The notes below the pieces were generated by a model that made no database searches, was not told the origin of the DNA, and saw only the letters and a program-made list of their open reading frames with translations. From assembly GCA_947650365.1 (NCBI GenBank), contig OX393555.1, positions 14,587,550 through 14,651,549 of the forward strand: a DNA stretch of 64,000 nt, given 5' to 3'. Below, piece after piece: positions 31,154 to 62,011 of the stretch; position 1 is the stretch's first letter; each line of letters starts with the position of its first letter. The DNA comes from Chamaelirium japonicum (taxonomy: Eukaryota > Streptophyta > Magnoliopsida > Liliales > Melanthiaceae). The position numbers and the translations under genes are program-made.

Positions 31154-33816
31154 TGCTACAACTTTAAGTAGTCCTAATTAAGGGACTAAAAAGTGCAATT
31201 TAACCCCAAGTATAGGGTATGTAGCGAAGTAGTAATCTCGGTGAGTCCGAGGTCGATTCCACAGGGACTGAAGGACTAATGGGAACTAATGTGATGACAG
31301 TGCGTGAACGTGAGTGCAAATCAGGGTTTTCCACTGAGAGTGGAGCACGAATGATGAAACTACGTTACTAAATTAAATAGAACTAAATATTGCAATTAAA
31401 TAAAGGAGGTTACGATGGAGATGAGGCTAAGGCATCCGGGTTCAACCTAGTAGTATATTATGTATTCTTTTGATCAATAATTTTTATGAGGATAGCATGA
31501 AGATTAAGTTCGGACGCATGCTACAGAGGTCTTTAAGCATTGCACATGCCCGGAGTCGATGTGCAATCAAAAGGGCTTGTACACATGTATCGATTTCTAG
31601 TGATAAGCATCCAACATACGAAAATAGATTAAAACTCATATGGCGAGAGACTCGTTACGCTAGTGCTATCTTACCACAGGGATTCATAAGCGGTCCGTAT
31701 GCCCGGAGTCAATACGGACTCAAACAAATATGCAAGTAAAATAACATACATCATCAGACAGTGTCATCCATATAAGATTCAATCATACGAAAATTAAGCC
31801 TTATCATTGATCAAATAAAAAACGTAACATACTACTAGGCGTCCCCCATAGCCTTAGCTAGGGGTTTAGCCGCGCATGTTCATAGAATTTAGCAGAAAAA
31901 CATAAGGGCAAGCAAACTCCATTAATGACGATACGAAGGTTGACGAGCGTAGGCGACGGCTTCCGGCGATGATGACGATGTCGGTGAAGCGTGGTTCGGA
32001 GACGATGGTGTACGGCGCGACTTCGGCGAGGATGAAGCGTGGCTCGGAGATGCTCGGTCGGGATGGTGGTGGATGATGAAGGTCCGGGTTTATGGGTTGA
32101 TGTGGTTCGGGCTAATGGTGGTAATGGAAGAATTTCGGATGGTCCTCCCCCCTAGTTGATGAGGTTCGGGTCTATATAGAGAAAGGGAGTTCGATTTAAG
32201 CAAGGAGAGGGAGAGAGACGTTCGGGATAGAGAGAGAAACGGGGAAGAGAGCCTGGGTCGTGGGTCTCGGATATGGTAATGAAGAGAGAGAGAAACGATC
32301 GGGTGGAGAGAGGAGTTCGGATGGAAGTCCGGGACGTTCGCGAGGAGAGAGATACCGAGGTGATCGGGTACACCGGACGGCTGTGATCTCGGCTCATGGG
32401 TCTCGCGGGTTTTAGAGAGAGAAAGAAACGGGAGTGGTTATGGAAAGAGAGAAGAGAGAAAACAGAGGCGGGAGAGAGAGACGTGCGGACTAGAGAGAGA
32501 AAAGGAAAGAGAGATAGAGAAGGAAAGAGAGAATCCCGGAGAGAGAGGGAGGTGGTGATCGGGTAGAGGGATGGGCGGCTGGGCGTTCGGTTGAGAGAAA
32601 ACAGGGAGGAGAGAGAGAGACGATCGGTTGAGAGCGAGAGCTGGGCGGACGGCTGCATGGGCTCTCTTTGCACGGACGGCTGTGATTGTTTCCAAGTGAT
32701 CACGGGTTAGAGAGAGAGTCGGCTGGATCTATGCATGGGTTTGGGTCGTGCAATGCATTTAGAATGCAAGGGACGGCCTTGATTCTAACTCCGGACGGCT
32801 GCGATTAAGTAGAGAAGAAGAGATTTGGGTGTTATGAGATGGGGTTCGTGCTGGATTTGCATGGGAATAAAAGGGACGGCTGTGATCTGCATGCAAGGGT
32901 TATGAACTAGATGGATGCGATGCGATCGGACGGGTAAGAGTGAATTTATGAGGACGGGACTCGACCAGCTGGGCTCATGCATAGGTCGCACATGGCTCAG
33001 GGATGTGCTTGGATATCATGATGGCCGAGTCAGATGTTATCAGGTTCGGGGTGGCCATGGACTCCGAAAACTCGACCGAAATCCGAATCGCAAAATTGAG
33101 CATGGGTATGCATGGATCTCGGGTTTGTGCGAGGGATTTGAGTGCACGGACGGCTACGATGAAGTCTGGATGGGAAGGAGTAAGGACGAGGGTGATTCGA
33201 TCCCATGCATGGGATGGTTTGATAGAGGAGAAAAGAAAGAGAAAGAAATGAGGAAAGGAGATGAGAGAGAAAAGGTGGCAGGTCTGTCCGCTCTCCATAC
33301 CACATTCGCAAGCCACCGTCATACTCCATTGAGCTTGGTAGAACGTCCGGGGTGCTCCTCTGGTTTGTATCATATGATTTGTCCGCCCGATGAGGTCATT
33401 TTTCTGCCGAATCTTGTAATTATCCTCTGCTTTATTGCTCTTCAGAAACTGCCTCCAAACGAGCACTGGAATTTCCATCGACTCATCGTGAGAATATATA
33501 TCACTTTAGCACGATGCCCTTGGGCTAGCTGCATCGAGATCCAGACCAATTCCCTGAAAACGTACATGAATTGATGCGTATAAGGTCCAATACGATTATC
33601 AATAAAAAGAATAATTTGAACTATCGGGCTCCATATTTTTCATGCATGTATCGTATGAGTGCAGACCCATATACCGTTATGTCCGTATTATAGTCTACTA
33701 TGCATTGATGCAAAGAAAATGATGCGCTTTACGAGTATATGAAAAGTTTTACGTAGCAAAGTGATGATAATGCAGTCAGAAATAAGCGATAAAATGCATT
33801 ATTTGGAGACTTAACA
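31154..33816 (-). repeat. Gypsy D 3' LTR (2663 bp)
   Basis: Borders are TGCTACAACTTTAAG and GACTTAACA. A GA-rich zone at about 32190-32720 produces Ser-Leu-rich minus-strand frames with no coding merit. Seven copies or near copies of GGACGGCTGTGAT are scattered between 32375 and 33160. The same frames appear in the partner LTR at a constant offset of 7556 bp, which shows they are LTR sequence. Confidence 0.95.
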
Positions 33817-35440: not shown

Positions 35441-38185
35441 TTAATCCTGATAAACATAATCTTTTGGAATTTTCAAAAAAAATAAAAAGTAGTCATGCAT
35501 AAAGAAGACATATCCTAAGATGTAATATGGATGCGTATATTCTCTTACCACATCCTTTCTATCAGGGGCAATATTACATTGTTTTTCATGTGCTGAATTT
35601 GTATTCTCTTCAAACTGGAGAATATAAATTTCATTTATATTCCACCCTATACCTTCTTTATGTTTTCTCAAAATTTCAAACAATTTTGTTTCCTGGTTCT
35701 TATTTAAATCAGAAGATATGCTCGTATGAAATGTTTCTCCTTTATCCAAATAAGCATACTTTAATTCAGATGGTAATTGTTTTAGACCAAGTTTTAGTGC
35801 TTTGATATTAGATGGAATTGATGTTGTAGTATCTCGAGGCAAGTCTTCAAAGTAAGCTTTCCATCTATCGGTATCAAACAATGGGACAGAATCTAACAAA
35901 GCATTAACATCCTCGAAAATCTTATGATCAGTGTGACCATAAAAATGAGTCAAACCAGTTTTTAATGGATCAGAAGTAGACATAACCAATTTATCCTCTA
36001 TACAAGCTTCAATCAAGTTTACTTCCTCAGGTTCATCATCATTATCATCATCTAGTTGTTTGCAAATATTGAAAACGTTCAGCTCAATAGTCATATTGCC
36101 AAATGAAAGTTTCATGACCCCATTCCGGCAATTAATAATGGCATTCGATGTAGCCAGGAATGGTCGACCTAGAATGACAGGAATAGGGGTGCTACCATAT
36201 GCCACAGGTTGAGTATCTAAAACAATAAAATCTACGGGAAAGTAGAATTTATCTATCTGAACAAGCACATCTTCTATGATCCCTCTCGGAATTTTGACAG
36301 ATCTATCGGCGAGTTGGAGAGTGACTTTGGTGGGTTTTAATTCACCAAGTCCCAACTGTTCATAAACCGAGTAAGGTAACAGGTTCACACTCGCCCCTAG
36401 ATCAAGTAAAGCTTGTTCTATCCTAAAGTTCCCTATGATACATGAAATAGTAGGACAACCAGGATCTTTATATTTAGGGGGAGCACTCTGCTTAAGGATA
36501 GCACTAACCTGTTCCGTCATAAAGGCCTTCTTTTGTACATAAAGCTTTCGCTTAACTGTACAAAGGTCCTTCAAAAACTTAGCATATGACGGTATTTGTT
36601 TAATTGCATCCAACAAGGGAATATTGATTTTAACTTGTTTGAATACATCAAGGATTTCTTGATCAGATGCTCCCTTTTTAGCCGCTAACAATCTATGGGG
36701 GAATGGGGCAACAGGTTTATACGCAGGCATTGGTTCATCATCTTTTTGTTTAGCAGTGCTATCCTCACCCTCATCTAGAAAAGATTCCTCAAGCTTATCA
36801 GTCGTTTTAGAGATTTCTTTATTGATGACTTTTCCACTCCGAAGGGTGGTGACAGACTTAGCATGCTCTACATGAGAATAAGATGAACTAGGCTTATTAA
36901 CCTCATATTGATTCTTAGGATTAGGCTGAGGTTGAGCAGGAAAAACTCCTTTCTCCCTAGCATTAATTTGTGATTCAATCCTATTGACTGAGGTTTTAAG
37001 TTCTTGAATAGCCTGTGCATTATTCTGGTTTATTTGAGTTTGCCCTTCTATGAAGTGGTTTATCGTAGATTGCCCTGCCATAATCATATCTAATTTATCC
37101 TCGAGGGACTTCAGGTGTGGTGGCACATAAGAAGTTTGATTAGAAGATCCCGGAGGATTATCGGTAGATGAATTATTCTTCCAACTGAAATTAGGATGAT
37201 TCCTCCAATTAGGATTATAGGTATCAGAATATGGGGAACTAAATGGCCTTTTGTAAGCATTAGTGAAATTTGCTTGGTCGTGCAACACTTCTTGAAAGGC
37301 AGGGATTGTAGGACAATCCTTTGTTAAGTGAACGTTACTCTCACAGATTTCACATATGCTATTAACAGAAGTTGTGGTTCTTCCTATGTTAACTTTTTGT
37401 GATTCTAGGGCTTCAAGTTTTCTAGTTAGGTTGGCAATTTTTGCATTGACATCATCTTTCTCAGATAATTGATAGATTCCTCCCTTAGAGTTAGACACTT
37501 GTTTAGATTTGTCAGTTTGATTGCTTGTATCCCAGCTTTGTGCATTTTCAGCTAATTGATCAAAATAATCCCAGGCTTCATCATGGTCTTTATTCATAAA
37601 TTCACCATTACACATCATCTCTACAAATTGTCTCATATTGGAGGCTAGGCCATCATAAAAGAAACTGATGATCCTCCAATCTTCGAAGCCATGATGTGGG
37701 CATAAGAGAAGAAGTTCCTTAAATCTCTCCCAACATTGGAAAAATGTTTCATGTTCTTTTTGAGAGAAATTCATGATATTCCTTCTCAAGGTATTCGTTT
37801 TATGAGTCGGAAAGAATTTTTTTAGGAATTCTCGTGTCATCTCTTGCCATGTCCCAATGCTTCTCGGCCTTAAAGAATGAAACCATGATTTGGCTTTCTC
37901 TTTTAGGGAGAATGGAAAAAGCTTCAGTTTAACTACATCTTCAGTTACATTATTGTATTGTAAGGTTGCAATAACTTCTTCAAATTCTTTAAGATGTAGG
38001 TAAGGACTTTCAGAGTCTAAGCCATAGAACTTAGGGAGTAATTGAATCACTCCCGGTTTCATATCAAAGGTTCCCGCATTGGTAGGAAAAATAAAGCATG
38101 ACGGGGTAGTCGTTCTACTAGGTTGTAAATAATCACGCAAGGTTCTAAATTGTTGCTCATCATGGTTACTTGCATTATCAGCCAT
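35441..38185 (-). CDS. Gypsy D gag-protease polyprotein (914 codons)
   Basis: One open frame from ATG at 38185. Residues 1-70 are an N-terminal region. A retrotransposon gag domain lies at about 70-220, including KLFPFSLKEKAKSWFHSL and FFPTHKTNTLRRNIMNFSQK. A coiled-coil-like stretch near 245-265 is followed by a zinc knuckle, CEICESNVHLTKDC (CX2CX4HX4C), at 278-291. The region to 480 is low-complexity, and a retropepsin-like protease lies at about 570-700 with DLGASVNLLPYSVYEQLGLG. The last residues resemble the linker that precedes reverse transcriptase in relatives and then stop. Gag forms the particle and the protease matures it. The frame is open throughout, in keeping with a very young insertion. 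Codon use is AT-rich. Confidence 0.9.
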   Translation of the reverse strand: MADNASNHDEQQFRTLRDYLQPSRTTTPSCFIFPTNAGTFDMKPGVIQLLPKFYGLDSESPYLHLKEFEEVIATLQYNNVTEDVVKLKLFPFSLKEKAKSWFHSLRPRSIGTWQEMTREFLKKFFPTHKTNTLRRNIMNFSQKEHETFFQCWERFKELLLLCPHHGFEDWRIISFFYDGLASNMRQFVEMMCNGEFMNKDHDEAWDYFDQLAENAQSWDTSNQTDKSKQVSNSKGGIYQLSEKDDVNAKIANLTRKLEALESQKVNIGRTTTSVNSICEICESNVHLTKDCPTIPAFQEVLHDQANFTNAYKRPFSSPYSDTYNPNWRNHPNFSWKNNSSTDNPPGSSNQTSYVPPHLKSLEDKLDMIMAGQSTINHFIEGQTQINQNNAQAIQELKTSVNRIESQINAREKGVFPAQPQPNPKNQYEVNKPSSSYSHVEHAKSVTTLRSGKVINKEISKTTDKLEESFLDEGEDSTAKQKDDEPMPAYKPVAPFPHRLLAAKKGASDQEILDVFKQVKINIPLLDAIKQIPSYAKFLKDLCTVKRKLYVQKKAFMTEQVSAILKQSAPPKYKDPGCPTISCIIGNFRIEQALLDLGASVNLLPYSVYEQLGLGELKPTKVTLQLADRSVKIPRGIIEDVLVQIDKFYFPVDFIVLDTQPVAYGSTPIPVILGRPFLATSNAIINCRNGVMKLSFGNMTIELNVFNICKQLDDDNDDEPEEVNLIEACIEDKLVMSTSDPLKTGLTHFYGHTDHKIFEDVNALLDSVPLFDTDRWKAYFEDLPRDTTTSIPSNIKALKLGLKQLPSELKYAYLDKGETFHTSISSDLNKNQETKLFEILRKHKEGIGWNINEIYILQFEENTNSAHEKQCNIAPDRKDVVREYTHPYYILGYVFFMHDYFLFFLKIPKDYVYQD

Positions 38186-38685
38186 ATTGTCAGAATAGTT
38201 TTTCAGACAGATTTGATTCAGATTCAGCTTTGCTTAATTTTTATGTATAATCCCGATACTACAAGGATATACACCAGATTCAGAGGCAAAGGGTAAGTCA
38301 AGGGTTTGCAAGCAAATGTATGCACCACCTAGAGCCTTCTATACGAACGCTCTCGTTTGAAGGGGATAACAGACTAGACACACATACGCCTACACCGAGA
38401 CGTATGTGCCGAGCTTTCCCACGAGAGCGTAAGTTGATGCGAGATAGCAAATACAGAGAATTTAAAGAACGAGTGTACCAGGGATAAGCAGATCTTTATT
38501 CAGGCAAGCGCGCTATACTCCTTCGCAATCAACGGTCGACTCCTCTTCCAATATTCAGATTTTTTTTTTTTTTTTTTTTTTTACCTGAAAAGAAGGAAAA
38601 GAAGTGCTTAGTATAATGAATGCAAAGAGAAAGCAAAGACTAAAAATAAAAACGTGGATGCGAAGTTCCTATTCGTCCGTTGCAA
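38186..38685 (-). other. Gypsy D leader between PBS and gag
   Basis: About 500 bp of untranslated leader contains a 24-base T run on the plus strand near 38559. No coding text was seen. Confidence 0.7.
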
Positions 38686-38709: not shown

Positions 38710-41372
38710 TGCTACAACTTTAAGTAGTCCTAATTAAGGGACTAAAAAGTGCAATTTAACCCCAAGTATAGGGTATGTAGCGAAGTAGTAATCTCGGTGA
38801 GTCCGAGGTCGATTCCACAGGGACTGAAGGACTAATGGGAACTAATGTGATGACAGTGCGTGAACGTGAGTGCAAATCAGGGTTTTCCACTGAGAGTGGA
38901 GCACGAATGATGAAACTACGTTACTAAATTAAATAGAACTAAATATTGCAATTAAATAAAGGAGGTTACGATGGAGATGAGGCTAAGGCATCCGGGTTCA
39001 ACCTAGTAGTATATTATGTATTCTTTTGATCAATAATTTTTATGAGGATAGCATGAAGATTAAGTTCGGACGCATGCTACAGAGGTCTTTAAGCATTGCA
39101 CATGCCCGGAGTCGATGTGCAATCAAAAGGGCTTGTACACATGTATCGATTTCTAGTGATAAGCATCCAACATACGAAAATAGATTAAAACTCATATGGC
39201 GAGAGACTCGTTACGCTAGTGCTATCTTACCACAGGGATTCATAAGCGGTCCGTATGCCCGGAGTCAATACGGACTCAAACAAATATGCAAGTAAAATAA
39301 CATACATCATCAGACAGTGTCATCCATATAAGATTCAATCATACGAAAATTAAGCCTTATCATTGATCAAATAAAAAACGTAACATACTACTAGGCGTCC
39401 CCCATAGCCTTAGCTAGGGGTTTAGCCGCGCATGTTCATAGAATTTAGCAGAAAAACATAAGGGCAAGCAAACTCCATTAATGACGATACGAAGGTTGAC
39501 GAGCGTAGGCGACGGCTTCCGGCGATGATGACGATGTCGGTGAAGCGTGGTTCGGAGACGATGGTGTACGGCGCGACTTCGGCGAGGATGAAGCGTGGCT
39601 CGGAGATGCTCGGTCGGGATGGTGGTGGATGATGAAGGTCCGGGTTTATGGGTTGATGTGGTTCGGGCTAATGGTGGTAATGGAAGAATTTCGGATGGTC
39701 CTCCCCCCTAGTTGATGAGGTTCGGGTCTATATAGAGAAAGGGAGTTCGATTTAAGCAAGGAGAGGGAGAGAGACGTTCGGGATAGAGAGAGAAACGGGG
39801 AAGAGAGCCTGGGTCGTGGGTCTCGGATATGGTAATGAAGAGAGAGAGAAACGATCGGGTGGAGAGAGGAGTTCGGATGGAAGTCCGGGACGTTCGCGAG
39901 GAGAGAGATACCGAGGTGATCGGGTACACCGGACGGCTGTGATCTCGGCTCATGGGTCTCGCGGGTTTTAGAGAGAGAAAGAAACGGGAGTGGTTATGGA
40001 AAGAGAGAAGAGAGAAAACAGAGGCGGGAGAGAGAGACGTGCGGACTAGAGAGAGAAAAGGAAAGAGAGATAGAGAAGGAAAGAGAGAATCCCGGAGAGA
40101 GAGGGAGGTGGTGATCGGGTAGAGGGATGGGCGGCTGGGCGTTCGGTTGAGAGAAAACAGGGAGGAGAGAGAGAGACGATCGGTTGAGAGCGAGAGCTGG
40201 GCGGACGGCTGCATGGGCTCTCTTTGCACGGACGGCTGTGATTGTTTCCAAGTGATCACGGGTTAGAGAGAGAGTCGGCTGGATCTATGCATGGGTTTGG
40301 GTCGTGCAATGCATTTAGAATGCAAGGGACGGCCTTGATTCTAACTCCGGACGGCTGCGATTAAGTAGAGAAGAAGAGATTTGGGTGTTATGAGATGGGG
40401 TTCGTGCTGGATTTGCATGGGAATAAAAGGGACGGCTGTGATCTGCATGCAAGGGTTATGAACTAGATGGATGCGATGCGATCGGACGGGTAAGAGTGAA
40501 TTTATGAGGACGGGACTCGACCAGCTGGGCTCATGCATAGGTCGCACATGGCTCAGGGATGTGCTTGGATATCATGATGGCCGAGTCAGATGTTATCAGG
40601 TTCGGGGTGGCCATGGACTCCGAAAACTCGACCGAAATCCGAATCGCAAAATTGAGCATGGGTATGCATGGATCTCGGGTTTGTGCGAGGGATTTGAGTG
40701 CACGGACGGCTACGATGAAGTCTGGATGGGAAGGAGTAAGGACGAGGGTGATTCGATCCCATGCATGGGATGGTTTGATAGAGGAGAAAAGAAAGAGAAA
40801 GAAATGAGGAAAGGAGATGAGAGAGAAAAGGTGGCAGGTCTGTCCGCTCTCCATACCACATTCGCAAGCCACCGTCATACTCCATTGAGCTTGGTAGAAC
40901 GTCCGGGGTGCTCCTCTGGTTTGTATCATATGATTTGTCCGCCCGATGAGGTCATTTTTCTGCCGAATCTTGTAATTATCCTCTGCTTTATTGCTCTTCA
41001 GAAACTGCCTCCAAACGAGCACTGGAATTTCCATCGACTCATCGTGAGAATATATATCACTTTAGCACGATGCCCTTGGGCTAGCTGCATCGAGATCCAG
41101 ACCAATTCCCTGAAAACGTACATGAATTGATGCGTATAAGGTCCAATACGATTATCAATAAAAAGAATAATTTGAACTATCGGGCTCCATATTTTTCATG
41201 CATGTATCGTATGAGTGCAGACCCATATACCGTTATGTCCGTATTATAGTCTACTATGCATTGATGCAAAGAAAATGATGCGCTTTACGAGTATATGAAA
41301 AGTTTTACGTAGCAAAGTGATGATAATGCAGTCAGAAATAAGCGATAAAATGCATTATTTGGAGACTTAACA
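38710..41372 (-). repeat. Gypsy D 5' LTR (2663 bp)
   Basis: This is the partner of 31154-33816, with the same length and borders and the same set of incidental frames. I found no mismatch in the stretches compared. It ends directly at the TCCTC duplication next to copia B sequence. Confidence 0.95.
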
Positions 41373-41645: not shown

Positions 41646-41650
41646 ATTAC

Positions 41651-42254
41651 TGTGGGTGCAAAAATTATACCGGACCGGATCAGAGCGGCATGGGCCCGCG
41701 CAACGGCCCAAGTGGGTAAGCCCGCCCGGGTTCATGAGCCCACTCTACGGGGCTCGCAGATCAAGCCCTCCCCCTTATTGGGTCCGAACAACGGTCCAAT
41801 AAGGGCCCAACAAGGAGGCCCAGAACCAGTGCCATGTCATCATCGCCACGTCATCACTGCCATATCTGGCACGTGCCTACGCTATAAAAGGACCCCCAAG
41901 GCATCCAAGAAAGTGGTTGGTCATTCGATCAGAGGAAGAGGGATTCCAGATCCAGAGCCAGAGCCCTCCATTCTTCCTCTTGAACTCTCCCAATTACTCC
42001 ATGCAAACACATTGTAAGAAACCTCTCTCGGCCTGTCGAGAGAACGCTCAACCCTCATTTACTCAAATTATAGTGAAGATCAGGTGGCACCTCTCGCCCG
42101 GAGACGTAGGTCGTAAGACTGAACTTTGACAACAACTACCTGTGTCGTCTCTGTCCTTCTCAACTTTCTAACCTCTAATACACAAACAATCCAATTCAAT
42201 CAAGGCTGTGGGGCGGGATTCCCGATCAAGGCGGCTCGAAAATTTCCCCCCATA
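41651..42254 (+). repeat. Gypsy C 5' LTR (604 bp)
   Basis: The LTR runs from TGTGGGTGCAAAAATT to TTCCCCCCATA. The 3' border is inferred from the ATTAC duplication and gives TG...TA ends, slightly unusual. A TATA box lies at 41883-41890. The U3 part has several GCCACGTCATC-like blocks resembling ACGT-core (bZIP-type) elements. Confidence 0.9.
41883..41890 (+). promoter_or_regulatory. TATA box of gypsy C 5' LTR
   Basis: GCTATAAAAGGACC is conserved in both LTRs (also at about 48583-48590) despite their divergence elsewhere. It is a good match to a plant TATA box, and transcription would start some 30 bases downstream. Confidence 0.65.
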
Positions 42255-42259
42255 ATCTT

Positions 42260-42276
42260 TGGCGCCATCTGTGGGA
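42260..42276 (+). promoter_or_regulatory. Gypsy C primer-binding site
   Basis: TGGCGCCATCTGTGGGA lies five bases after the 5' LTR. It begins with the TGG common to tRNA-primed sites and resembles those of other plant gypsy and TR-GAG elements. I have not matched it to a specific tRNA. Confidence 0.8.
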
Positions 42277-42394
42277 TATCGATAGAGGTCTTACCCACAC
42301 CTCTACCGACTCCTATTCAGCTTGTGGTGACGAGCCACAAGTCCTCCTCTAAATCAACCTCAATGCCTTCATCACGCCGATATCAGCACGCTCA

Positions 42395-44046
42395 ATGGTG
42401 AAGGCCAGCACCAACCCACCAAAGGCAGGTGCTGACCGGACAATCGACGTGCTAATCGAAGAAGAACAAGAAGTCTCGGTTGCAACCAACCGAAGACATA
42501 TTCATAAGCGACTGGGGCCACAAGGAAGCCATTCGGAAAGCCGCAGTAATCGGCAGGACCCGCCATTCCGGAGGCACGGATCTGGCAAAGAGCACGCCAT
42601 CCAAGGGGACAACGATCTAACTACATACCAAATTTTGGCTGCTGATTTCTAGCTGTTGAACCTTCTCAAGAGGAACGCAGCCCTCGAGCAAGAGAGGGAT
42701 TTCCTAAAGAAGGTAGCTGATCGAAAGAGCGGGGGTTGTGGCCCACAACTCTCCAACTGCTGATGAAGACCAACCAAGGACTCACCCAGCCGTGATTCAT
42801 CATCTTGAAGAACCACATGTGCCATGTATCGAGAGGCGTCAAGTATCCACACAAGCACCAAGGCAAACGGTATGGGATCGCCTCGACGTCGACGGTGCGC
42901 TAAGCTATCGCCGAGAAGGATTGCCTCAATCAACGGGGTCTACTGGACGTTCTATCCCTCCGTACATGAAAGCAACAGATGCCCGCGAGCTGCTCAACCG
43001 ACTAAGGCATACTGCCGACGTGGGACGCCGTCATCAAGACTGTAGGCAGTTAATCACCTCGGTGGGGCCACTGCATCCCAAGGTTCTTGTAACCCCTTTT
43101 CCTATGGGTTGGCGAACACCGAGCCTACCAAAGTTTAACTGCATCCAGGGAGACCCTGCTCTCCATATCCTAGCCTACAAGCAGGCCCTGACGCCCTACG
43201 AGTATGAGAATCATGCCGTATGTTTGCGGGAAGCCTCGAGGGACCTGCCCTCGACTGGTACTACACACTGCCTACTGGTACGGTGACCACATTTAAAGAA
43301 TTGGCTGAACTCTTCATGGACCATTATCGGCTAAACTTAAAGCCGAAAAAGAAGCTGGATACACTCTACCGGCTGAAGATGGGCTCCGATGAATCTCTAA
43401 GGAGCTTCACGATGAGGTTTCGTAATGAGCACTCCGAGCTCACTGGTCGGTCCCATAATAAGGAGGTCATCATACTGGCATTCCAGAATGCTATCCGGCC
43501 AGAGCTCCACGTCTACACCGACTTCATCCGGTACCCTCCCAATACCTTAGAGGTAATGTTCAAGCGCGTACAGCGGGAGATAGAGGTGGAAGACAATCAG
43601 CAGGCCAGAAGACTACGCGAGCCCCGTGATTCTCGTGACTCCCGACATAAGAAAGATGATGAAGCTCCTAATTAAGCACGCTACAAGAAGTCTGCCCATG
43701 CTGCATCCGACCAAAAGGTACAGGCCAAAAGGTACAATGAAGATCCGAAATCCCCTCCAGCAGAAAAGAGGTGAACTCCAAGGGAACAAAGGGTATTTAC
43801 TGAGCTGAATACCTCCATTGAAGACATCTTCGCCTACTTGCAGAACGAGCCCTTTTGTAAATGGCCACAGCCTCTCCCTCCAAATTCCGACCAGGCGGGA
43901 GATACGACAGCCTATTATGAGTTCCATCGCAGCCATGACCACCCAACCTCTACATGTTGGAAGCTAAAGCATCACATCGAAGACCTGATCTAAGAAGGGC
44001 GGCTCGATGGCTACCTCGCTAACAAGGAACCAGGTCGAGAGAAGTA
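42395..44046 (+). pseudogene. Gypsy C gag remnant
   Basis: The best-preserved stretch (43220-43675) carries the retrotransposon gag domain of Ty3/gypsy elements, with LEGPALDWYYTLPTGTVTTF and FRNEHSELTGRSHNKEV among its recognisable blocks. Upstream text from about 42395 is the variable N-terminal part. Downstream, near 43912-43990, is YYEFHRSHDHPTSTCWKLKH, the CX(n)H-type block seen near the end of plant gypsy gag proteins. Gag would form the particle. The gene is a fossil with several breaks. No protease, reverse transcriptase or integrase follows. Confidence 0.85.
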
Positions 44047-44222
44047 AAGGCAGCAGCAGTAGAGAAAGAAAGTCAACATAACACGTAGATGCATAATCAT
44101 AACGTCCGTTGGGCAACCTCTAAAAAAGTGTAACTGCAACTTTGTTATATCAATAAAGTGTCTTTTTTTTTCTCAAAATCAAATCTCTCGAAGTTCGATT
44201 CCACCATATTAAGGCATAAAAA

Positions 44223-44995
44223 AAAGGCTCCTGGCAACCCAGGTCAACCAAAGACCTTCGATTCCGCCCATTCAAGTCGGAAGCTCGAAGGCAAGTCGGC
44301 TATGCCCTCTCGAGGCTAAAGTTCGATAAAAAGGCTCCTGGCAACCCAGGTCAACCAAAGACCTTCGATTCCGCCCATTCAAGTCGGAAGCTCGAAGGCA
44401 AGTCGGTTATGCCCTCTCGAGGCTAAAGTTCGATAAAAAGGCTCCTGGCAACCCAGGTCAACCAAAGACCTTCGATTCCGCCCACTCAAGTCGGAAGCTC
44501 GAAGGCAATTTGGCTACGCCCTTTCAAGGCGAAAGTTCGATAAAAAGGCTCCTGGCAACCCAGGTCAATCAAAGACCTTCAATTCCGCCCATTCAAGTCA
44601 GAAGCTCGAAGGCAATTCGGCTACACCCTCACGAGGCTAAAGTCCGATAAAAAGGCTCCTAGTAACTCAGGTCAACCAAAGACCTTCGATTCTGCCCGTT
44701 CAAGTCGGAAGCTCGAAGGCAATTTGGCTATTCCCTTTCAAGGCAAAAATCTGATAAAAAGGCTCATGGCAACCCAGGTTAACCAAAGACCTTCAATTCC
44801 ACCCATTCAAGTCGGAAGCTCGAAGGCAAGTCGGCTACGCCCTCTCGAGACTAAAGTCCGATAAAAAGGCTTCTGGCAATCCAGGTCAACCAAAGACCTT
44901 CGATTCCGCCCGTTCAAATCGGGAGCTCGAAGGCAATTCGGCTACGCCCTTTTAAGGCGAAAGTCCGATAAAAATACTTCTGACAATCCATGTCA
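44223..44995 (+). repeat. Gypsy C array 1: 107-bp tandem repeat, about 7 copies
   Basis: The unit starts AAAGGCTCCTGGCAACCCAG and recurs at 44223, 44330, 44437 and onward at a 107-bp spacing. The first two or three copies are nearly identical and later ones drift, especially around CTCGAAGGCAA. It sits immediately after gag, where the element's pol would be. Confidence 0.92.
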
Positions 44996-45084
44996 AGCTA
45001 AATTATCAACTATACTCATCTGAGGCGATGAGAATAAGTCCAAGGCAAGCGTCGTCGCTTTGACATGCACCAAGTTCAAGGAGA

Positions 45085-45925
45085 CATCCTTGGCACTCAA
45101 AGACAAAGTCCGAGGCGACCAATGCCTCGACACTCTACAAGCCCAAGGCCCAGCCCTTGGCACTCGAAGACGAAGTCTGAGGCGACCAACGCCTCGGCAC
45201 TTTACAAGCCCAAGGCCCAGTCCTTGGCACTCTAAGACAAATTTCGAGGCGACCAACACCTCGGCACTCTGCAAGCCCAAGGCCCAGCCCTTGGCACTCG
45301 AAGATAAAGTCCGAGATGACCAACGTCTTGGCACTCTACAAGCCCAAGGCCCTGCCCTTAGCAATTAAAGGCGAAGTCTAAGGCAACCAATGCCTGGGCA
45401 CTCTACAAGCCCGAGGCCCTGCCCTTAGCATTTGAAGACAAAGTCCGAGGCGACCAATGCCTCGGTACTCTACAAGCCCAAGGCCTTGCTCTTGGCACTT
45501 GAAGACAAAGTCCGAAGGCGACCAATGCCTCGGCACTCTACAAGCCCAAAGCCCAACCCTTGGTACTCGAAGATAAAGTCCGAGGCGACCAACGCCTCGG
45601 CACTCTACAAGCCCAAGGCCCAGCCCTTGGCACTCGAATACAAAGTCCGAGGCGACCAACACCTCGGTACTCTACAAGCCCAAGGCCCAGCCCTTGGCAC
45701 TCGAAGATAAAGTCCGAGGCGACCAACACCTCAGCACTCTACAAGCTCAAGGCCTAGCCCTTGGCACTCGGAGACAAAGTCTGAGTCGACCAACGCCTCG
45801 GCACTCTACAAGCCTAAGGCCCAGCCCTTGGCACTCGAAGACAAAGTCCGAGGCGACCAACACCTCGGTACTCTATAATCCCAAGGCCCTACCCTTGACA
45901 CATAAAGATAAAAGTCCGAGACGTC
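45085..45925 (+). repeat. Gypsy C array 2: 67-bp tandem repeat, about 12 copies
   Basis: The period is 67 bp, measured from GCCCAAGGCC at 45141, 45208 and 45275. Each unit contains two dyads: CCGAGGCG-ACCAA-CGCCTCGG, with 8-bp arms, and CCAAGG-CCCAGC-CCTTGG, with 6-bp arms. Both could fold in RNA or single-stranded DNA. The overlapping frames on both strands here are products of the repeat. Confidence 0.92.
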
Positions 45926-46429
45926 ATCGCCGACGTATTGGCATTCGATCAAAAGTCCAAGCTTAGTCTTGCCACTCAGGTCCAAGCATCGGATTGTCAC
46001 TGGCTATCACCTTTTCTCGTTGACTAACGGTTCTAAACCGGTCAGGGGGTGGTTGGTCTAACTCTGTCAGTGTGTGTCTCCACACTGGTGCAATCGATGA
46101 TGGGTAACACGGGATAAAATGGTGCTTCCTTGATCCTGGCCAAGTCAACACCCACACATGACCGTAGTACCTGGCCAATACAATAACCAGGTGCGGTAGT
46201 ACATTGGGTGAAGACTGGCTAGCCATCATGCGGAGTCATCCTAGATTATCTCTAAGAAGCCCCCCTCAAATATAGCATTGTCCCTCGCTGATATCCCCGC
46301 GCACCAGTGTTTTACCGAAAAAGTGTCGGTTTCAAATGGGGCTAAAATTCAAAAAACATACTATTTTCAATACCGACACGTTTTGGCCTCTTCTAGCAGC
46401 CCCAATAACGGGGTGTCGGCATCAACAAG

Positions 46430-46810
46430 CAGCCCCCCCTCGGTTTCGCAGAGAAACCAAGTGGGGAGGGGATGATGACACACCATCAGCATACCCCTCG
46501 GTTTCGTCAGAAAACCGAGAGGGGGTATGTGTTGGCATCAACAAGCAACCCCCCCTCGGTTTTGCACAAAAACCGAGTGGGGAGGGGGTGACGACACACC
46601 ATCAGCAGCACATCCCTCGGTTTCGTTAGAAAACCGAGAGGGGGTATGTGTCGGCATCAACAAGCAGCCCCCCCTCGGTTTCGCACAAAAACCGAGTGGG
46701 GAAGGGGTGACGACACACCATCAGCACACCCCTCGGTTTCGTCAGAAAACCGAGAGGGTGTGTGTGTAGGCATCAACCAACAGCCCCGCCTCGGTTTCGC
46801 ACAAAAAAAA
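46430..46810 (+). repeat. Gypsy C array 3: ~117-bp repeat with strong foldbacks
   Basis: About three units repeat with 115-119 bp spacing. Each holds two hairpins built from CTCGGTTT and AAACCGAG arms flanked by C-rich and G-rich runs, for example at 46497-46521 and 46553-46577. CATCAACAAGCAGCCCC and GACACACCATCAGCA separate the hairpins. Confidence 0.88.
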
Positions 46811-47144
46811 ACCCCTGACCCCAACAGCGCAAAGTGAGAGTCGGAGAGCGGAGAAGCTTCTTCCATGCCGAGGGAATGCCTGCCGAGGTACATCACGTAC
46901 AACTTTGTAACAGCGAGGGTGGGCCACCAGCAAAGAAAAGAAGGAAACAAAAAGAAAGAAGTGAAAGCAAAGAAGGAAAGAGTCAAAGGATAGAAAGTGA
47001 AAGCAAAGAAAGAAAAGTGAAAGCAAAGAGAGAAAGAGGGAGCCTGCTCTCTCTCTCTCTCTCCTATCCGTGCACAAGCCCCGCGCCGCTCTCCTGCCGT
47101 GCCCCCATCCCGTGTGCAGCACATACCAAAAAGGAAAAAAAAAA
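46811..47144 (+). other. Purine-rich and CT-rich stretch upstream of the captured ORP fragment
   Basis: A run of AAAGAAAGAAGTGAAAGC-like purine repeats is followed by a (CT)n tract near 47050-47072 and a GC-rich segment. This composition resembles a plant 5' untranslated region but may also be array-derived. No domain was recognised in the long plus-strand frame that crosses it. Confidence 0.4.
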
Positions 47145-47450
47145 AGGAATGAGAAATATAGTGAAGGAAGTGCAAGTTAATCTGATAATGAGAATGAAAG
47201 ACAAGATGCTGCTGAAGAAGAAACTGATGATGAAGACAACACATTTTTCGATACCCAAGATTTTCTCTCATCAAGTTCTTTTAAAAAGCTCTGGATCTGA
47301 CTTTTATAAATCTGAAATTGATTCTGAGGATGGAGAGCACTATATTGTTGGTTCAGTTGACGGTATTGATGCTTCCATGAATCCTGTGGGATCTAACTAC
47401 CCATATCTTAGGACACGTAAGAAATTACCTGATCCAATTGAAAACAGGGA
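47145..47450 (+). pseudogene. Captured fragment of an oxysterol-binding-protein-related (ORP) gene
   Basis: This stretch inside gypsy C has non-repetitive, codon-like composition and encodes an acidic text with DDEDNTFFDTQDFLSSSS and, further on, SEIDSEDGEHYIV and SNYPYLRTRKKLPDPIE. From memory this is the linker of plant ORP1-type proteins just before the OSBP lipid-transfer domain, where YPYVKRRKKLPDPVEKEKG is typical. ORPs move sterols and phosphoinositides between membranes. Neither the PH domain nor the OSBP domain itself is present. The fragment is broken and is not a working gene. Introns appear absent across it, which would fit capture from RNA, but it is too short to be sure. The match is recalled, not searched. 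Confidence 0.7.
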
Positions 47451-47499
47451 GAGAGAGGAACGTTCGCTCTCATTTGAGTCAATACCAAAGAAAGGAGAG

Positions 47500-48240
47500 A
47501 GAGAGAGTAGAGACTTTTTGGCTCGGCATCCTTTCGGTCGGGAAAAGGAAAAAGGGTCTCGGTACCCGCTCGGCATCCTCTTGGTCGGGAAAAGGGAAAA
47601 GGGACTCGGTACCCTCTCGGTATACTCTCGGTCGGGAAAAGGGAAAAGGGTCTCGGTACCCTCTCGGTATACTCTCGGTCGGAGAATACACTAATTTTTC
47701 GAGAACGCCTCCTCGCAAAACCGAGACTTTTTGGCTCGCACCAAAAGGGTCTCAGCGTCGGAAGAAGGCAAAGGAGTCTCGGCATCCTTTCGGTCGGGAA
47801 AAGGCAAAAGAGTCTCGGTACCCTCTCGGTATACTCTCGGTCGGAGAATATACTAATTTTTCGAGAACGCCTCCTCGCAAAACCGAGACTTTTTGGCTCG
47901 CACCAAAAGGGTCTCGGCGTCGGCAGAAGGCAAAGGAGTCTCGGCATCCTCTCGGTCAGGAAAAGGCAAAAGGGTCTCGGTACCCTCTCGGTATACTCTC
48001 GGTCGGGAAAAGGGAAAAGGATCTCGGTACCCTCTCGGTATACTCTCGGTCGGAAAACACACTGGTTTTTCGGAAATACCCCCTTGCAAAACCGAGACTT
48101 TTTGGCTCGCACCAAAAGGGTCTCGGTATCCTCTCGGTTGGAAAACACACTGCTTTTTCTAATACGCCCACTTGCAAAACCGAGACTTTTTGGCTCGCGC
48201 CAAAAGGGTCTCGGTATCGGCAGAAGGAGACTCTGCTAAT
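47500..48240 (+). repeat. Gypsy C array 4: CTCGGT-rich variable repeat
   Basis: Irregular units are built from GGGAAAAGG, TCTCGGTACCCTCTCGG and TATACTCTCGGTCGG, with a longer block, CGCAAAACCGAGACTTTTTG, recurring at about 47713, 47876, 48083 and 48173. CTCGGT and its complement ACCGAG occur in close pairs, so foldbacks are again frequent. A 303-codon plus-strand frame and a 246-codon minus-strand frame cross it purely because the repeats lack stops. Confidence 0.85.
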
Positions 48241-48337
48241 ACGAACCGCGGCACCGACGGCCTTTGCTAACCATGGCAGGATCCTAAGGCGTTTGCACCT
48301 TGGAATCCTAGCCGACCCAGGGGGTCCTGACCTGACT

Positions 48338-48346
48338 GGGAGAGGG
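48338..48346 (+). promoter_or_regulatory. Gypsy C polypurine tract
   Basis: GGGAGAGGG lies four bases before the 3' LTR, the expected place for the plus-strand primer. Confidence 0.65.
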
Positions 48347-48350
48347 TAAC

Positions 48351-48953
48351 TGTGGGTGCAAAAATTGTACCGGACCGGATCAGAGCGGCATGGGCCCGCG
48401 CAACGGCCCAAGTGGGTAAGCCCGCCCGGGTTCATGGGCCCATTCTACGGGGCTCGCAGATCAAGCCCTCCCCCTTATTGGGTCCGAACAACGGTCCAAT
48501 AAGGGCCCAGCAAGAAGGCCCAGAACCAGTGCCACGTCATCATCGCCACTTCATCATTGCCATATCGGGAACGTGCCTATGCTATAAAAGGACCCCCAAG
48601 GCATCCAGGAAAGTGGTTGGTCATTCGATCAGAGGAAAAGGGATTCCAGATCCGGAGCCAGAGCCCTCCATTCTTCCTCTTGAACTCTCCCAATTGCTCC
48701 ATGCAAACACATTGTAAGAAGCCTCTCTCGACCTGTCGAGAGAACGCTCAACCCTCATTTACTCAAATTATAGTGAAGATCAGGTGGCACCTCTCGCCCG
48801 GAGACGTAGGTCGTAAGACTGAACTTCGACAACAACTCCCTGTGTCGTCTCTGTCCTTCTCAACTTTCTAACCTCTAATACACAAACAATCCAATTCAAT
48901 CAAGGCTGTGGGGCGGGATTCCGATCAAGGCGGCTCGGAAATTTCCCCCCATA
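48351..48953 (+). repeat. Gypsy C 3' LTR (603 bp)
   Basis: This is the partner of 41651-42254, with the same TGTGGGTGC start and CCCCCCATA end. About 20 substitutions separate them, around 3%. With a commonly used plant LTR rate of 1.3e-8 per site per year that would be on the order of one million years, valid only if the rate applies here. Confidence 0.93.
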
Positions 48954-48958
48954 ATTAC

Positions 48959-52803: not shown

Positions 52804-52815
52804 GCTCTGATACCA
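52804..52815 (-). promoter_or_regulatory. Copia B primer-binding site
   Basis: The minus strand reads TGGTATCAGAGC, the initiator tRNA-Met site, two bases inside the 5' LTR, as in copia A. Confidence 0.92.
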
Positions 52816-52817
52816 AT

Positions 52818-54810
52818 TATTGCGAATAATCCCATGGTAGAGGCTCGCAGCGAAAACAATTTGGCAGTCGAAAGATCATTCATGGTGCACGTTACACAAT
52901 TTAAACTTTCATTGAAACTAATCTATATGTGCGTGCATGTGTGTGCACGTGAATCGAATACCCTAACGGTAATCTAGCGTAATAATTATCTAGTATGCAT
53001 GCAAATCATAAAGCTCGCTAGATCTACGTGTTAGGTTATTCATACCTTCGTGCGGATCTTTTAACCGCGGAGAATTGTCTTCTTTGTCGATGGAGACGGA
53101 AGATCGTTCGCGAAGAAGCCGATGGTATGAATGGAGATGATGCCTTCTTGTTCACTCGATCTCATACGATGCATGGAACGTCGCTCTTGAATCTCTGAGT
53201 GTCTCCGAAGAACGACCCTACTCCTTCTACAAAACTCCACGTGAGGAAGACGAAGTATCAAGCGGGGAAGTAGAGAGATGAGGGAGAGATCTAGGGAGAA
53301 GAGAGAGGGGGGTTCGATTTTTCCAACACCTATGGCCGGCCCCATAAAGCCCCCTATATAGGGTCAGCTTACCCCCTTGGATCATTATCCAAGGGGATAA
53401 GAACATCCCCTAAAAATCTCCACAAAATCACCCTTTTATATCTCATTGTATTTATCCGTTTTCCCCACTTTTAGGGCTTGTTTTGATCAATTCAAAACCC
53501 TATCCCTATCCCTATGACCGGCCCTATTGATGGGGGATTCTCATCCCCATAATATAGGGCCGGCCCTAGCATGGTCCCTCACTGCTAGGGTCGGCCATAA
53601 GTGAGGTCTGCTAGAGTGAGTTTTTACCAAAACACCATGATACCTCAATTTGACCATTTCTAGTGTGCGAGACCTAGCGGCCACTCCTTAAGTGATCTTT
53701 ACTAGTTACCTCACTATTAACTGAGGCTACCGGAGGATGCCTCTAGTAAAGTCAACTAGTTAACTCACAACATATCCTGGTGCATCGCACCTATACAACG
53801 AAGTTCACTTATGGCTAGGGATAACTACTTGCGTCTCTGTACTAGTCTCGGGCTTACCCCTTAGTACTCGCATGTAGTTACGCATCTACCATGCTCTAGT
53901 GCTAAGCACACACGGAGCGTAGACTTCTTTCTTCCTCCTACTGCTTATGGTGTTCCGAGGAGATGGTTCAAGAGCCGCACATAATGTTGATAAGGTGGAA
54001 CCATCAGGGACCGGGGTTTATGGCTTCCAACTCAAGCTTGATCGACACACTACCCGAGTGTACCATCAATCCTCTAAGCTTGAGTTAACCTGTGTGGCCA
54101 CCCAGAGTGTGACACAGACTGTACTCCAATTCACCCGGACTTACTATATTCTCTATTATACCCCTGCTCTCCGTTTAGTAGTGGTAAATCCACTGTCCCT
54201 CCACTTGATTCCATGATTCACTTCGAGCGGTGGAGACTACCGTCAGACTCAAATGATTATATGACTTGGTTCTTTCAGGGTTAACCTATACATCGTTTCT
54301 CTGATTACCCCGTCGAGTTAATCAAACTCGGTCAACAATCAAACTGATGACCACCAAGCCTGGGTTTGGTACAGTGTAAGTCACACCAAGGAACACACCT
54401 CCCTTCAGGGGTGTGGATGGCCTGCAGGAGTGACACACTAATACAACGCCAGCCGGGTAACCCAATACACCGTGGTTTTGGATCACTGCATACGGATCCT
54501 CACACATTGGTGTGCCAAAGCACCACGCAACTGGTTAGTCTATCAGACATGGTTCCTCAGGATTTAGGACCGTTTTACCCTAAGCAGAAACACGACTTAG
54601 TGTACCAGTGTCTGCTCACTGATCTGTATACCGTATTAGTTCCGTTCAGCCACAGACACTGTGCCTGGTGATGACCATGGTGACGACTTCCCATGAACTG
54701 TCATCAACTATGTTACGCACCTATATGCATCTCATATAATAACTATCAATCTTTATTTATTAGACCAAAAAAATAAAGTTTTACAAGCTTAGAACACATC
54801 AATCCTAACA
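52818..54810 (-). repeat. Copia B 5' LTR (1993 bp)
   Basis: The LTR starts next to the PBS and ends AATCCTAACA against satellite. It is alignable over its whole length with 27448-29583 but is about 140 bp shorter. A minus-strand TATATAGGGG box at 53351-53360 is the likely core promoter. The divergence between the two LTRs indicates an older insertion than either gypsy element nested in it. Confidence 0.93.
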
Positions 54811-56108
54811 GCCACTTGGACTCCACTCGTAATATACGACATGAAAAAGAATCCCACAATAGTAGGACACCTCTTAGTTATAGGACTCTTTATATTTTGG
54901 CCATACTGATATGGGGTTAAAGTCACCCCATTGACATATAGATGTACCCTCATATATTGTAAACAATCTTATCAACTTGATTGGGACCCACTTAGAATCT
55001 TCTCATAATCTACTACATGCATAAGGATGCTATAATAGTGTGACCCCTCCAAACGATATGACTCTTTATATTTTGGTCATACATATACGGGTGTTAAAGT
55101 CACCCCTTTGAGACATAGATGTACCCCCTATAATATAGCCGACCTTATTACCTTGGTGGGCCCTACTTGTACTCCTCTTATAATCTACTATATTTATAAG
55201 GATCCTATAATAGTTGGACGCCTCCTACCTGTATGAATTTTTATATTTTATCCACACAGAAGCAGAAAATAAATTCACCCCTTTGACACATAGATATACT
55301 TCTCTATAATATTTATAAGGATTTGAAACATAGATATATATAGTGTATTCGACATTGTCAAGTTGAGTGGGATCCACTTGGACTCACTTCGTAATCTACT
55401 ACATGTATAATAATCCTATAATTGTTGGACCCTACCAAGCTATGGGGCTCTTAATATTTTTGCAATATAGATATGGGTGTTAAAGTCACCCCTTTGATAC
55501 ATAAATATACCCCCCTAAAATATAGTCGACCTTATTAACTGGGGTGGGCCCACTTGAACTCCTCTCGTAATCTACTATATTTATAAGGATCCCACAATAG
55601 TAGGACCCCTCCTACCTATAGGGATTTTTCATATTTTGTTCATACTGATACGAGTAATAAAGTCACCCATTTGACATATAAATATACCCCTTTATAATAT
55701 TGTCGTCTGGAATAGGTCCCACTTGGACTCTTCTCGTAATCTAAAACAAGATTAAGGATTTTACAATAGTAGGACCCCTCATAGCTGTAGAACTCTTTAT
55801 ATTATGGCCACAAAGTTATGAGTGGTAAAGTCACCCCTTTGACACATAAATATGCCCCCCTCTATAACGAACTCGACAATATCAACTAGAATGACTCCCC
55901 ACTTGGACTCCTTTCAAAATTTACAACATGAATAAGGATCCCACAACAGTAAGACCCCTCCTATCAATGAGACTTTTTATATTTTTGTCATACAGATATG
56001 GGTGTTAAAGTTACCCCTTTGACACATAGATATACCCCCTATAATATAGTCAACCTTGTCAACTTGAGCGGGCCAACTTGGACTCCTCTTATAATCTACT
56101 GCTTTCAG
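54811..56108 (+). repeat. Satellite array, ~177-bp monomer, continuation (about 7 copies)
   Basis: This is the same monomer, in the same orientation and phase, as 6463-27447; copia B has merely split the array. It ends within a monomer after ATAATCTACTG and passes straight into CTTTCAG and the ATG of the CACTA transposase-like gene, with no transposon terminus between them. Confidence 0.93.
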
Positions 56109-57799: not shown

Positions 57800-60610
57800 T
57801 ATTATGTTGTTTGAAAACTTATGATTTACAAACCAAGTTCATAATACAAGTACTAAAATTTTGCATCTTACTAAAATTAATATAAGTACGAATTATCGGA
57901 TGCGATTCGATAATGATTCGATCGAATCCAAACCAAGTTCAAAAGCTAAAAGCTAAAAACTTATGATTTACAAACATTTAGACTCAGAATTAGTCAATCG
58001 GAGTATAAAATCTTAAAATATCAACTAAATACTTGTTCGCAAGTCTGAAATACGAAAAACCATTCAAGTACGAATTATCGGATGCGATCCGATAACGATC
58101 CGATCGAATCCAAACCAAGTTCAAAAGTCGAAAGCTGAAAACTTATGATTTACAAATACTTAGACTCTAAATTAGTTAATCGGAGGGTAAAAATTTTAAA
58201 TATTTACTAAATACTTGTTCGCAAGTCCGAAATACGAAAAACCATAAGAATTATCGGATGCGATCCGATAACAATCCGATCAAATCCAAACCAAGTTCAA
58301 AAGTCGAAAGCCAAAAACTTATGATTTGCAAATATTTAGATTCTAAATTAGTCAATCAGAGGGCAAAATCTTTAAATATTTACTAAATACTTGTTCGCAA
58401 GTTCGAAATATGAAAAGTCATTTAAGTACGAATTATCAGATGCGATTCGATAATGATTCGATTAAATCAAAACCAAGTTCAAAAGCCAAAAGCCAAAAAC
58501 TTATGATTTGTAAATACTTAGATTCTAAATTAGTCAATCAGAGGACAAAATCTTTAAATATCTACTAAATATTTATTCATAAGTCCGAAATATATAAAAC
58601 CATACAAGTATGAATTATCTGATGCGATCCGATAATGATCCGATCGAATCCAAACCAAGTTCAAAAGTGAAAAGCTAAAAACTTATTATTTGCAAATACT
58701 TAGACTCTAAATTAGTCAATCGAAGGATAAAATTTTAAAATATCTACTTAATACTTGTTCGCATGGCCGAAATACGAAAAATCATATAAGTCCGAATTAT
58801 CGGATAATATCTAATAATGATATGATCAAATCTAAACCAAATTCAAAAGTCAAAAGCTGAAAACTTATGATTTGCAAACACTTAGACTCAAAATTAGTCA
58901 ATCAGAGGATAAAATCCTAAAATATATACTAAATACTTGTTTGTAAGTCTGAAATACGACAAACCATACAAGTTCGAATTATCGGATGCGATCTGATCGA
59001 ATCCAAACCAAGTTCAAAAGCCAAAAGCCAAAAACTTATGATTTGCAAACACTTATACTCAAAATTAGTCAATCAGATGGCAAAATCTTAAAATACCTAC
59101 TAAATACTTGTTCATAAATCCGAAATACAAAAAACCATACAAGTATGACTTATCGGATGTGATCCAATAACGATCTGATCGAATCAAAATCAAGTTCAAA
59201 AGCTAAAAACTTATGATTTGCAAACACTTAGACTCTAAATTAGTCAATCGGAGGGTAAAATCTTTAAATATCTACGAAATACTTGTTCGTAAGTCCAAAA
59301 AATAAAAAACCATACAAGTATGAATTATCGGATGTGATCTGATAATAAATTGATTGAATCCAAACCAAGTTCAAAAGTCGAAAGCCGAAAACTTATGATT
59401 TGCAAACACTAGACTCTAAATTAGTAAATCGGAGGGTAAAATCTTTAAATATCTACTAAATACTTATCTGCAAGTCTGAAATATGAAAACCATACAAGTA
59501 CAAATTAATGGATTCGGTCCGAAAACGATCCAATCGAGTCCAAACCAAATTCAAAAGTCGAGAGCTGAAAACTTATGATTTGTAAATACTAAAACTCTAA
59601 ATTAGTCAATCGGAGGGCAAAATCTTTAAATATATACTAAATTCTTGTTCGTAAGTTAGAAATATAAAAAATCATACAAGTACGAATTATCAGATGCGAT
59701 CCGATAACGATCTGATCGAAATCTAGCCAAGTTCAAAAGCCGAAAGCCAAAAACTTATGATTTGCTAAGACTTAGACTGAAAATTAGTCAATCAAATGAC
59801 AAAATCTTAAAATATATACTAAATACTTGTTCGTAAATTCGAAATAGGAAAAACCATTCAAGTCTAAATTATCGGATGCAATCCGAAATTGATCCGATCG
59901 AATCCAAACCAAGTTTAAACGATGAAAGCTGAAAACTTATAATTTGCAAACACTTAGACTCTAAATTAGTCAATCAAAGGATAAATCTTAAAATATCTAT
60001 TAAATACTTGTTCGTAAGTCCGAATTTCAAAAAACCATACAAATATGAATTATCGGATGCGATCCGATTATGATCCGATTGAATCCAAACAAAGTTCAAA
60101 GAGAAAAACTAAAAACTTATGATTTACAAACATTTAGACTCTAAATTAGTCAATCGAAAGGCAAAATCTCAAAATATCTACTAAATACTTATTCATAAGT
60201 CTGAAATATGAAAAACTATACAAGTGCGAATTATCGGATCCAATCCGATCAGATTCAAATTAAGTCCAGAAGCTAAAAGCCTAAAACGAATGATTTACAA
60301 ACACTTAGACTCTAAATTAGTCAATCGGAGGGCGAAATCTTAAAATATCTACAATATCCAATAAAGATCCGATAACGATCCTAGTATGATCCGATAACGA
60401 TATGATCTATCCAATAATGATAACGAGAACGATCCGATAACAATCCGATTGATTTGATAATGATAACAATCCTATCGATCCGATAATGATCCGCTAACAA
60501 TAACGATCAGATTCGATAACGATCCGATCCGATCCGAAAAGGATTCGATAACTATCCGATCGAATCTAAACTATATTCAAAATCCGATCGAATCCAAACC
60601 AAGTTTAATA
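57800..60610 (+). repeat. ~180-bp tandem array inside the CACTA element, about 15 copies
   Basis: Successive CCAAGTTCAAAAG blocks lie 182, 176 and 182 bp apart near 57935, 58117, 58293 and 58475, and the pattern continues to about 60340. Each unit has GATGCGATCCGATAACGATC, AAAAACTTATGATTTGCAAA and CTAAATACTTGTTCGCAAGT. The GATCCGAT segment is itself a run of short repeats, and from 60345 to 60600 the array collapses into these alone. It is unrelated in sequence to the 177-bp satellite despite similar length. No genes were seen in it. Confidence 0.92.

Positions 60611-61521
<911 letters not shown>

Positions 61522-61545
<24 letters not shown>
61522..61545. repeat. (GA)n microsatellite
   Basis: A short GA run follows the second TA tract and abuts the next MITE. 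Confidence 0.9.

Positions 61546-61546
<1 letters not shown>

Positions 61547-62007: not shown

Positions 62008-62011
<4 letters not shown>

Follow-up and report, generated by a model that had tools for sequence, protein, structure and literature searches.

The question raised by this locus is how a piece of a host gene for an oxysterol-binding-protein-related protein (ORP) came to lie inside a gypsy-type LTR element of Chamaelirium japonicum. Throughout, the window denotes the whole stretch of 64,000 nucleotides that was analysed. A sequence-only reading of it had placed ORP-like text at 47145-47450, between the third and fourth tandem arrays of the element; the segment is real, its true borders being 47144-47444 (301 bp), and it lies in the sense orientation, on the same strand as gag. 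The text SNYPYLRTRKKLPDPIE and the acidic stretch that had suggested an ORP are both present, but in two different frames, of which frame a reads SDNENERQDAAEEETDDEDNTFFDTQDFLSSSSF and frame b reads KSSGSDFYKSEIDSEDGEHYIVGSVDGIDASMNPVGSNYPYLRTRKKLPDPIE.

In the text of PMC3261905, soybean Orp1c is printed with TDDDDN-AFFDTRD-IL and Arabidopsis Orp1c with TFFDT-D; this FFAT-like motif precedes the ORP domain. Against the soybean stretch as given in that source, TDDEDNTFFDTQDFL agrees at 11 of 15 residues with a BLOSUM62 score of 65. Elsewhere in the window the highest score was 23, and 60 shufflings of the window in 60-base blocks gave at most 30; the FFAT-like match is not a product of chance. 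The fragment thus holds the FFAT-like motif and linker, and it stops some five residues short of the Oxysterol_BP domain. Pfam searches with the fragment alone gave no match in either frame, and frame b retrieved no ORP from the PDB, where three designed Cake proteins came up with a lowest E of 0.00092, a sum over their repeats, nothing from plasmids or viral contigs, and from prokaryote contigs a single weak Blautia match over 25 residues that is taken as chance. The failure of these fragment-only protein searches to return an ORP is expected, since the fragment is linker and the collections, by their description, contain no plant genomes. At the DNA level, plasmids yielded one 22-base match, viral contigs none, and phage collections 24 records with short matches, at E ~0.3 among the matches listed; a literature text search for printed ORP linker words gave no match.

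The window's own assembly (1.52 Gb, 3253 contigs) was searched with the fragment, and both candidates obtained are accounted for: one is the window copy, and the other is C5:42875553-42875833, at 98% identity. The latter belongs to a gene on the plus strand of contig C5 whose exons lie between ~42.859 and 42.895 Mb and include, in what is a partial gene model, a PH exon (PF00169, 2.2e-8) and three Oxysterol_BP exons (PF01237; 7.6e-17, 2.8e-19 and 8.9e-20). The exons were located using ORP sequences, and the Pfam matches are independent of those. An FFAT-like motif and acidic tract, TDDEDNTFFDTRDFL, lie upstream of the Oxysterol_BP domain, which begins at residue 98 of the translated parent exon. 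With its PH and Oxysterol_BP domains and its FFAT-like motif, the C5 parent is a plant ORP1-type ORP gene. The FFAT-like match and the parent exon at 98% together confirm the ORP-like text between arrays 3 and 4, and the similarity to a plant ORP gene that had been supposed is to a gene of the same genome.

Alignment of the fragment with the parent also reveals the form in which it was copied. Its first 20 bases are identical to those with which an upstream exon closes at C5:42864932, just before a GT donor, and the remaining 281 bases (97.5% identity) start at the first exon base after an AG acceptor. A GT...AG intron of 10,621 bp is therefore absent from the captured copy, removed exactly at the splice sites, as would be looked for if introns had been lost on capture. 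Because the intron is missing at exact splice sites, the source of the fragment was spliced mRNA; the piece spans one splice junction only. Relative to the spliced parent, there are six substitutions, all of them protein-changing and one creating a stop, together with a 1-base insertion that shifts the frame. With its stop and frameshift, the ORP fragment is a dead passenger.

The element that carries it spans 41651-48953 of the window and has the features listed below. Its LTRs are 96.7% identical and are bounded on both sides by an ATTAC target duplication; LTRs with a target duplication, and intron loss relative to a parent in the same genome, are thus both present, as belongs to the capture of an mRNA by an LTR element.

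Features of the LTR element and of the captured ORP fragment (window coordinates)
Feature	Position	Strand	Remark
Target-site duplication, left copy ATTAC	41646..41650	.	
5' LTR, 604 bp	41651..42254	+	
Putative primer-binding site TGGCGCCATCTGTGGG, 5 bases past 5' LTR	42260..42275	+	sequence read directly
gag fragment, Retrotrans_gag PF03732, E 1.3e-8	43208..43672	+	
Tandem array 1, 107-bp unit	44221..44996	+	
Tandem array 2, 67-bp unit	45088..45920	+	
Tandem array 3, 116-bp unit	46413..46807	+	
Left flank, element-native, A/GA-rich tract at its end	46820..47143	+	
Captured ORP, last 20 bases of parent exon N	47144..47163	+	20/20 vs C5:42864913-42864932
Captured ORP, first part of parent exon N+1 (C5:42875554 onward)	47164..47444	+	
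Right flank, element-native, GA-rich	47445..47520	+	
Tandem array 4, 47/162/88-bp units	47521..48218	+	
Polypurine run GGGAGAGGG adjoining 3' LTR, putative PPT	48338..48346	+	sequence read directly
3' LTR, 603 bp	48351..48953	+	
Target-site duplication, right copy ATTAC	48954..48958	.	

The run past the 5' LTR is a putative primer-binding site by its position and by its similarity to such sites. The gag of the element is gypsy-type by its PF03732 match, with Ty3_capsid reaching merely 0.011, under its cut-off; a search of viral contigs with the gag piece found nothing. Neither a pol domain nor the gypsy order RT-RH-IN was found in the element. Between 43676 and 46656 no frame of more than 129 aa lies wholly inside, and the six longer frames in 46657-48444 contain no retroelement domain, five of them giving weak matches below cut-off alone. 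Since no pol was found, the element is non-autonomous and gag-only.

Copia-type ORFs on the opposite strand occur on both sides of this element, which therefore probably sits within a copia element on C7, a placement deduced from these ORFs rather than from an empty site. Next to it, gag and protease domains at 35441-38233 on the minus strand mark a gypsy element; the 2663-bp repeats at 31154-33816 and 38710-41372 are 100% identical and are likely its LTRs, which would make it a very recent insertion. Other repeats in the window include long arrays of a 175-180-bp satellite-like repeat, interrupted by other sequence, at 6905-27306 and 54812-56100; a 1.9-kb stretch in two copies, 90.7% identical, at 27442-29340 and 52812-54705; ~14 tandem copies of a 182-bp unit, in which GATCCGAT-type words abound, at 57880-60352; and, after these, TA/AT microsatellites at 61223-62011.

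The left flank, 46820-47143, has 60 genome matches including itself (40 of 194 first-look candidates scored). As these queries stopped at 47143, the end of homology there was partly set by construction, and the search was rerun with the query extended to 47444; homology to 11 sister loci then stops at 47140-47154. Beyond this point, seven of the 11 run into GA-rich GAAAGGAAAGAGAGAGA-type DNA without ORP, and the other four contain more copies of the left unit, followed in one of them by other DNA. At the sister locus L050 (C104:327863-328051), different DNA after the left unit might be another insert. The right flank, 47445-47525, has 12 genome matches including itself, and three sisters have purine-rich DNA in front of it. 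Both flanks are hence repeated element DNA native to the family, and the ORP segment alone is unique; the supposed non-repetitive island holds for that segment, and not for the DNA adjoining it. The left flank resembles copies of the L040 type and the right flank copies of the L035, L038 and L057 types, and among the loci examined none was found in which both window flanks are contiguous. Because no sister joins them, the exact empty site is not seen.

At the two switch points, the ORP gene and the element have short words in common, AAGGAA at the left one, GAAA or GAAAA at the right one. These are short and lie in low-complexity DNA, 20-mers as purine-rich as the two junction sides making up 3.3% and 5.6% of the element interior, and as evidence of the joining they are suggestive only. 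There is no 3' poly(A): the right border at 47444 is followed by GA-rich element DNA. A 3' poly(A) tail is listed as a retrogene mark in PMC5664825; as a partial internal capture is not expected to be tailed, its lack lowers the fit of a whole retrogene, not that of template switching. An 8-bp direct repeat, ATACCAAA, flanks 47131-47481. It was considered as the target duplication of a nested transposon and rejected, since its left copy is native to the element and occurs also in sister elements without ORP.

The LTR family itself is large, with 41 matches from the 40 scored of 3701 first-look candidates; the genome search skips very common words, and counts of repeats are therefore lower bounds. 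In contrast, the ORP piece is absent from all 22 sister loci on both strands, and the genome search gave only the window copy and the parent. The proposal that capture preceded amplification, should other copies carry the fragment, consequently falls away: no relative with it was found, so capture followed the amplification of the sisters seen. The LTRs differ at 20 of 603 aligned positions (K2P 0.034), which corresponds to ~1.3 million years at 1.3e-8 per site per year, the rate as used in PMC5664825. This divergence predicts 5.0 substitutions in 301 bp, and the six observed (P(>=6)=0.38) place the divergence of the fragment at the age of the LTRs, so that capture probably took place in the same cycle as this insertion. 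The 95% interval for six substitutions, 2.2-13.1, would also accommodate an earlier cycle, at up to ~2.6 times the insertion age with the error of the LTR estimate uncounted.

A second host gene is found in a sister element. In L032 (C7:72583999-72592927), an ORF of 479 aa that encodes a class-3 lipase domain (PF01764, 6.5e-20) lies at L032:1511-2947:- (C7:72585410-72586846), in sense orientation and upstream of array 4. The lipase occurs without interruption at eight places in the genome, L032 included, at 91-100% identity, the others being on C8 (two), C3, C2, C2269, C6 and C4; its parent is a multi-exon gene at C8:62825872-62827438, and three introns of 81, 84 and 88 bp are absent from all eight copies. 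An LTR stands at most 1.5 kb downstream in three of the four loci inspected. Four of the copies are broken and a fifth has a stop late in its frame, which leaves three that are open throughout. NG86 dN/dS values of 0.32-0.60 (10 pairs from four copies and the parent) could be mistaken for constraint. However, the N:S ratio is 29:17 for changes common to some copies and 109:64 for private ones (Fisher p=1.0), and 8:8 for changes common to all eight (p=0.42 vs private), and CpG transitions make up 82 of 173 private changes. Since shared and private ratios are equal, the dN/dS values are no evidence of selection, and with the CpG-rich private changes and four of eight copies broken, purifying selection on the lipase is rejected. 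That an apparent dN/dS below 1 is undone by a shared-versus-private comparison is a caution for similar claims.

Ten ORFs from five of the eight sister elements L031-L038 were scanned for other captured genes, L031, L033 and L038 being left out, and the lipase was the sole match. A recognised host gene piece is thus present in two of nine full-length elements (the window element and L031-L038), a count that is not a rate, given the 10 ORFs scanned. Upstream of array 4, differing islands were also observed at L034:5620-7058 and L036:4606-6143; the first has 20 full-length genome places including itself and no Pfam match, and part of the second is family-wide.

Taken together, the structure is best explained if a gag-only gypsy-type element took up spliced ORP mRNA by template switching during reverse transcription and now holds it as a single-copy passenger on C7, a reading to which we assign a probability of roughly 0.9. 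Minus-strand synthesis would have proceeded from the 3' end of the element RNA, through array 4 and into the GA tract upstream of it. From this GA-rich tract, the nascent strand would have jumped to a co-packaged, spliced ORP mRNA at its GAAAAGGAGAAAGG stretch, copied ~300 nt across the exon-exon junction, and then returned to the element RNA at AAGGAA in the A/GA-rich tract. Such an order of switching predicts a sense insert, as observed. The chimeric cDNA would then have been integrated on C7, probably inside the copia element, where it is now single-copy, and the fragment would have become a passenger on losing its reading frame. Co-packaging of the mRNA, and guidance of the switches by short purine-rich matches, are the parts that we infer; template switching guided by microsimilarity is a model described in PMC5408686.

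Pack-MULEs and Helitrons often carry plant gene fragments (PMC13317346, PMC2774510), and the ORP piece could in principle have entered as DNA within such a nested element, or as filler at a break, without passing through mRNA. The direct repeat around 47131-47481 speaks for this, although its left copy is native in sisters without ORP. Moreover, captures by Pack-MULEs and Helitrons usually keep introns, whereas here 10.6 kb of intron is gone at exact splice sites; a scan limited to TIRs (9/10 bases with a 4-11-base target duplication) around the fragment gave 0 matches; and the genome search returned no intronless ORP locus elsewhere that might have served as donor. We therefore give entry as DNA almost no credence. 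A processed ORP pseudogene of LINE type, inserted into an existing copy of the element, would account for the spliced source, and yet the insert is an internal 301-bp piece whose 3' end has no poly(A), the left one of the two flanking repeats is native to the element, the fragment borders fall within the element's own purine tracts, and no further ORP copy appeared in the genome search, all of which render this origin highly improbable.

The capture could also be older than the insertion, the fragment having been propagated and its other copies lost or missed. The lower-bound nature of the repeat counts and the width of the substitution interval favour such a history to some degree, but both scored candidates were the window copy and the parent, none of the 22 sister loci has the piece, and the same genome search readily detected the eight copies of the spread lipase capture; a prior round of propagation is accordingly rather unlikely. 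A further proposal concerns what the fragment does now: from its sequence, with ~98% identity over 301 bp in sense orientation, it might act on its parent, for instance through small RNAs against ORP mRNA. The element around it is presumably silenced, which we count for this proposal; an action of this kind would nonetheless be very unlikely.

Different subfamilies contain different inserts at the corresponding position: the ORP piece once, the lipase in eight copies and a further island in 20. It is tentatively conceivable, if on balance doubtful, that the gag-only family takes up host mRNAs time and again, with its 3' noncoding region, whose many A/GA tracts are similar to stretches of numerous mRNAs, as a preferred landing site for template switches. 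Were this true, purine tracts would determine the sites and the frequency of host mRNA capture, a dependence open to test.

Comparison with known systems places the case as follows. Like the Orp1c genes of soybean and Arabidopsis, whose sequences as printed in PMC3261905 have an FFAT-like motif (AFFDT-D and TFFDT-D, respectively) ahead of the ORP domain, the captured copy derives from a gene with this motif; unlike them, it keeps the linker only, interrupted by a stop and a frameshift. Tan et al. 2016, as described in PMC5408686, reported LTR-mediated retroposition through template switching, which likewise involves spliced mRNA, short similarities at the switch points and a limited part of the parent mRNA; those cases, according to the same description, concern animals, and the element here is from a plant. 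In pepper, as presented in PMC5664825, NLR retroduplication also drew on spliced mRNA, mostly in non-autonomous LTR elements, but there a gene family was multiplied, each species having 86 to 123 NLRs within LTR elements, whereas the ORP piece is single-copy and broken. The classic retroelement transduction is Bs1 of maize, an LTR element that, by the accounts in PMC13317346 and PMC5408686, holds internal pieces of a plasma-membrane ATPase and two other host genes; these pieces of three genes gave a chimeric gene, while the present element has one broken 301-bp fragment beside its gag piece.

Host gene capture by an LTR element, as the sequence-only reading had proposed, is supported, but its remark that this is less common for LTR elements makes such capture seem rarer than it is: for maize alone, PMC2774510 reports 425 intact LTR elements that contain gene fragments, the result of no fewer than 189 captures. 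These too are host gene fragments inside intact LTR elements, in another genome, whereas here the parent, the splice junction and the sister copies were examined individually. Such captures are already well documented, and the ORP fragment is a new, well-resolved example of them. The sister lipase capture, spread to at least eight copies, illustrates the other fate that a captured gene may meet. The ORP case is unusually complete, in that parent, exact splice junction, native flanks, orientation, copy number and date come from one genome, and for this reason the capture of an mRNA by a plant LTR element can be read from it almost directly.
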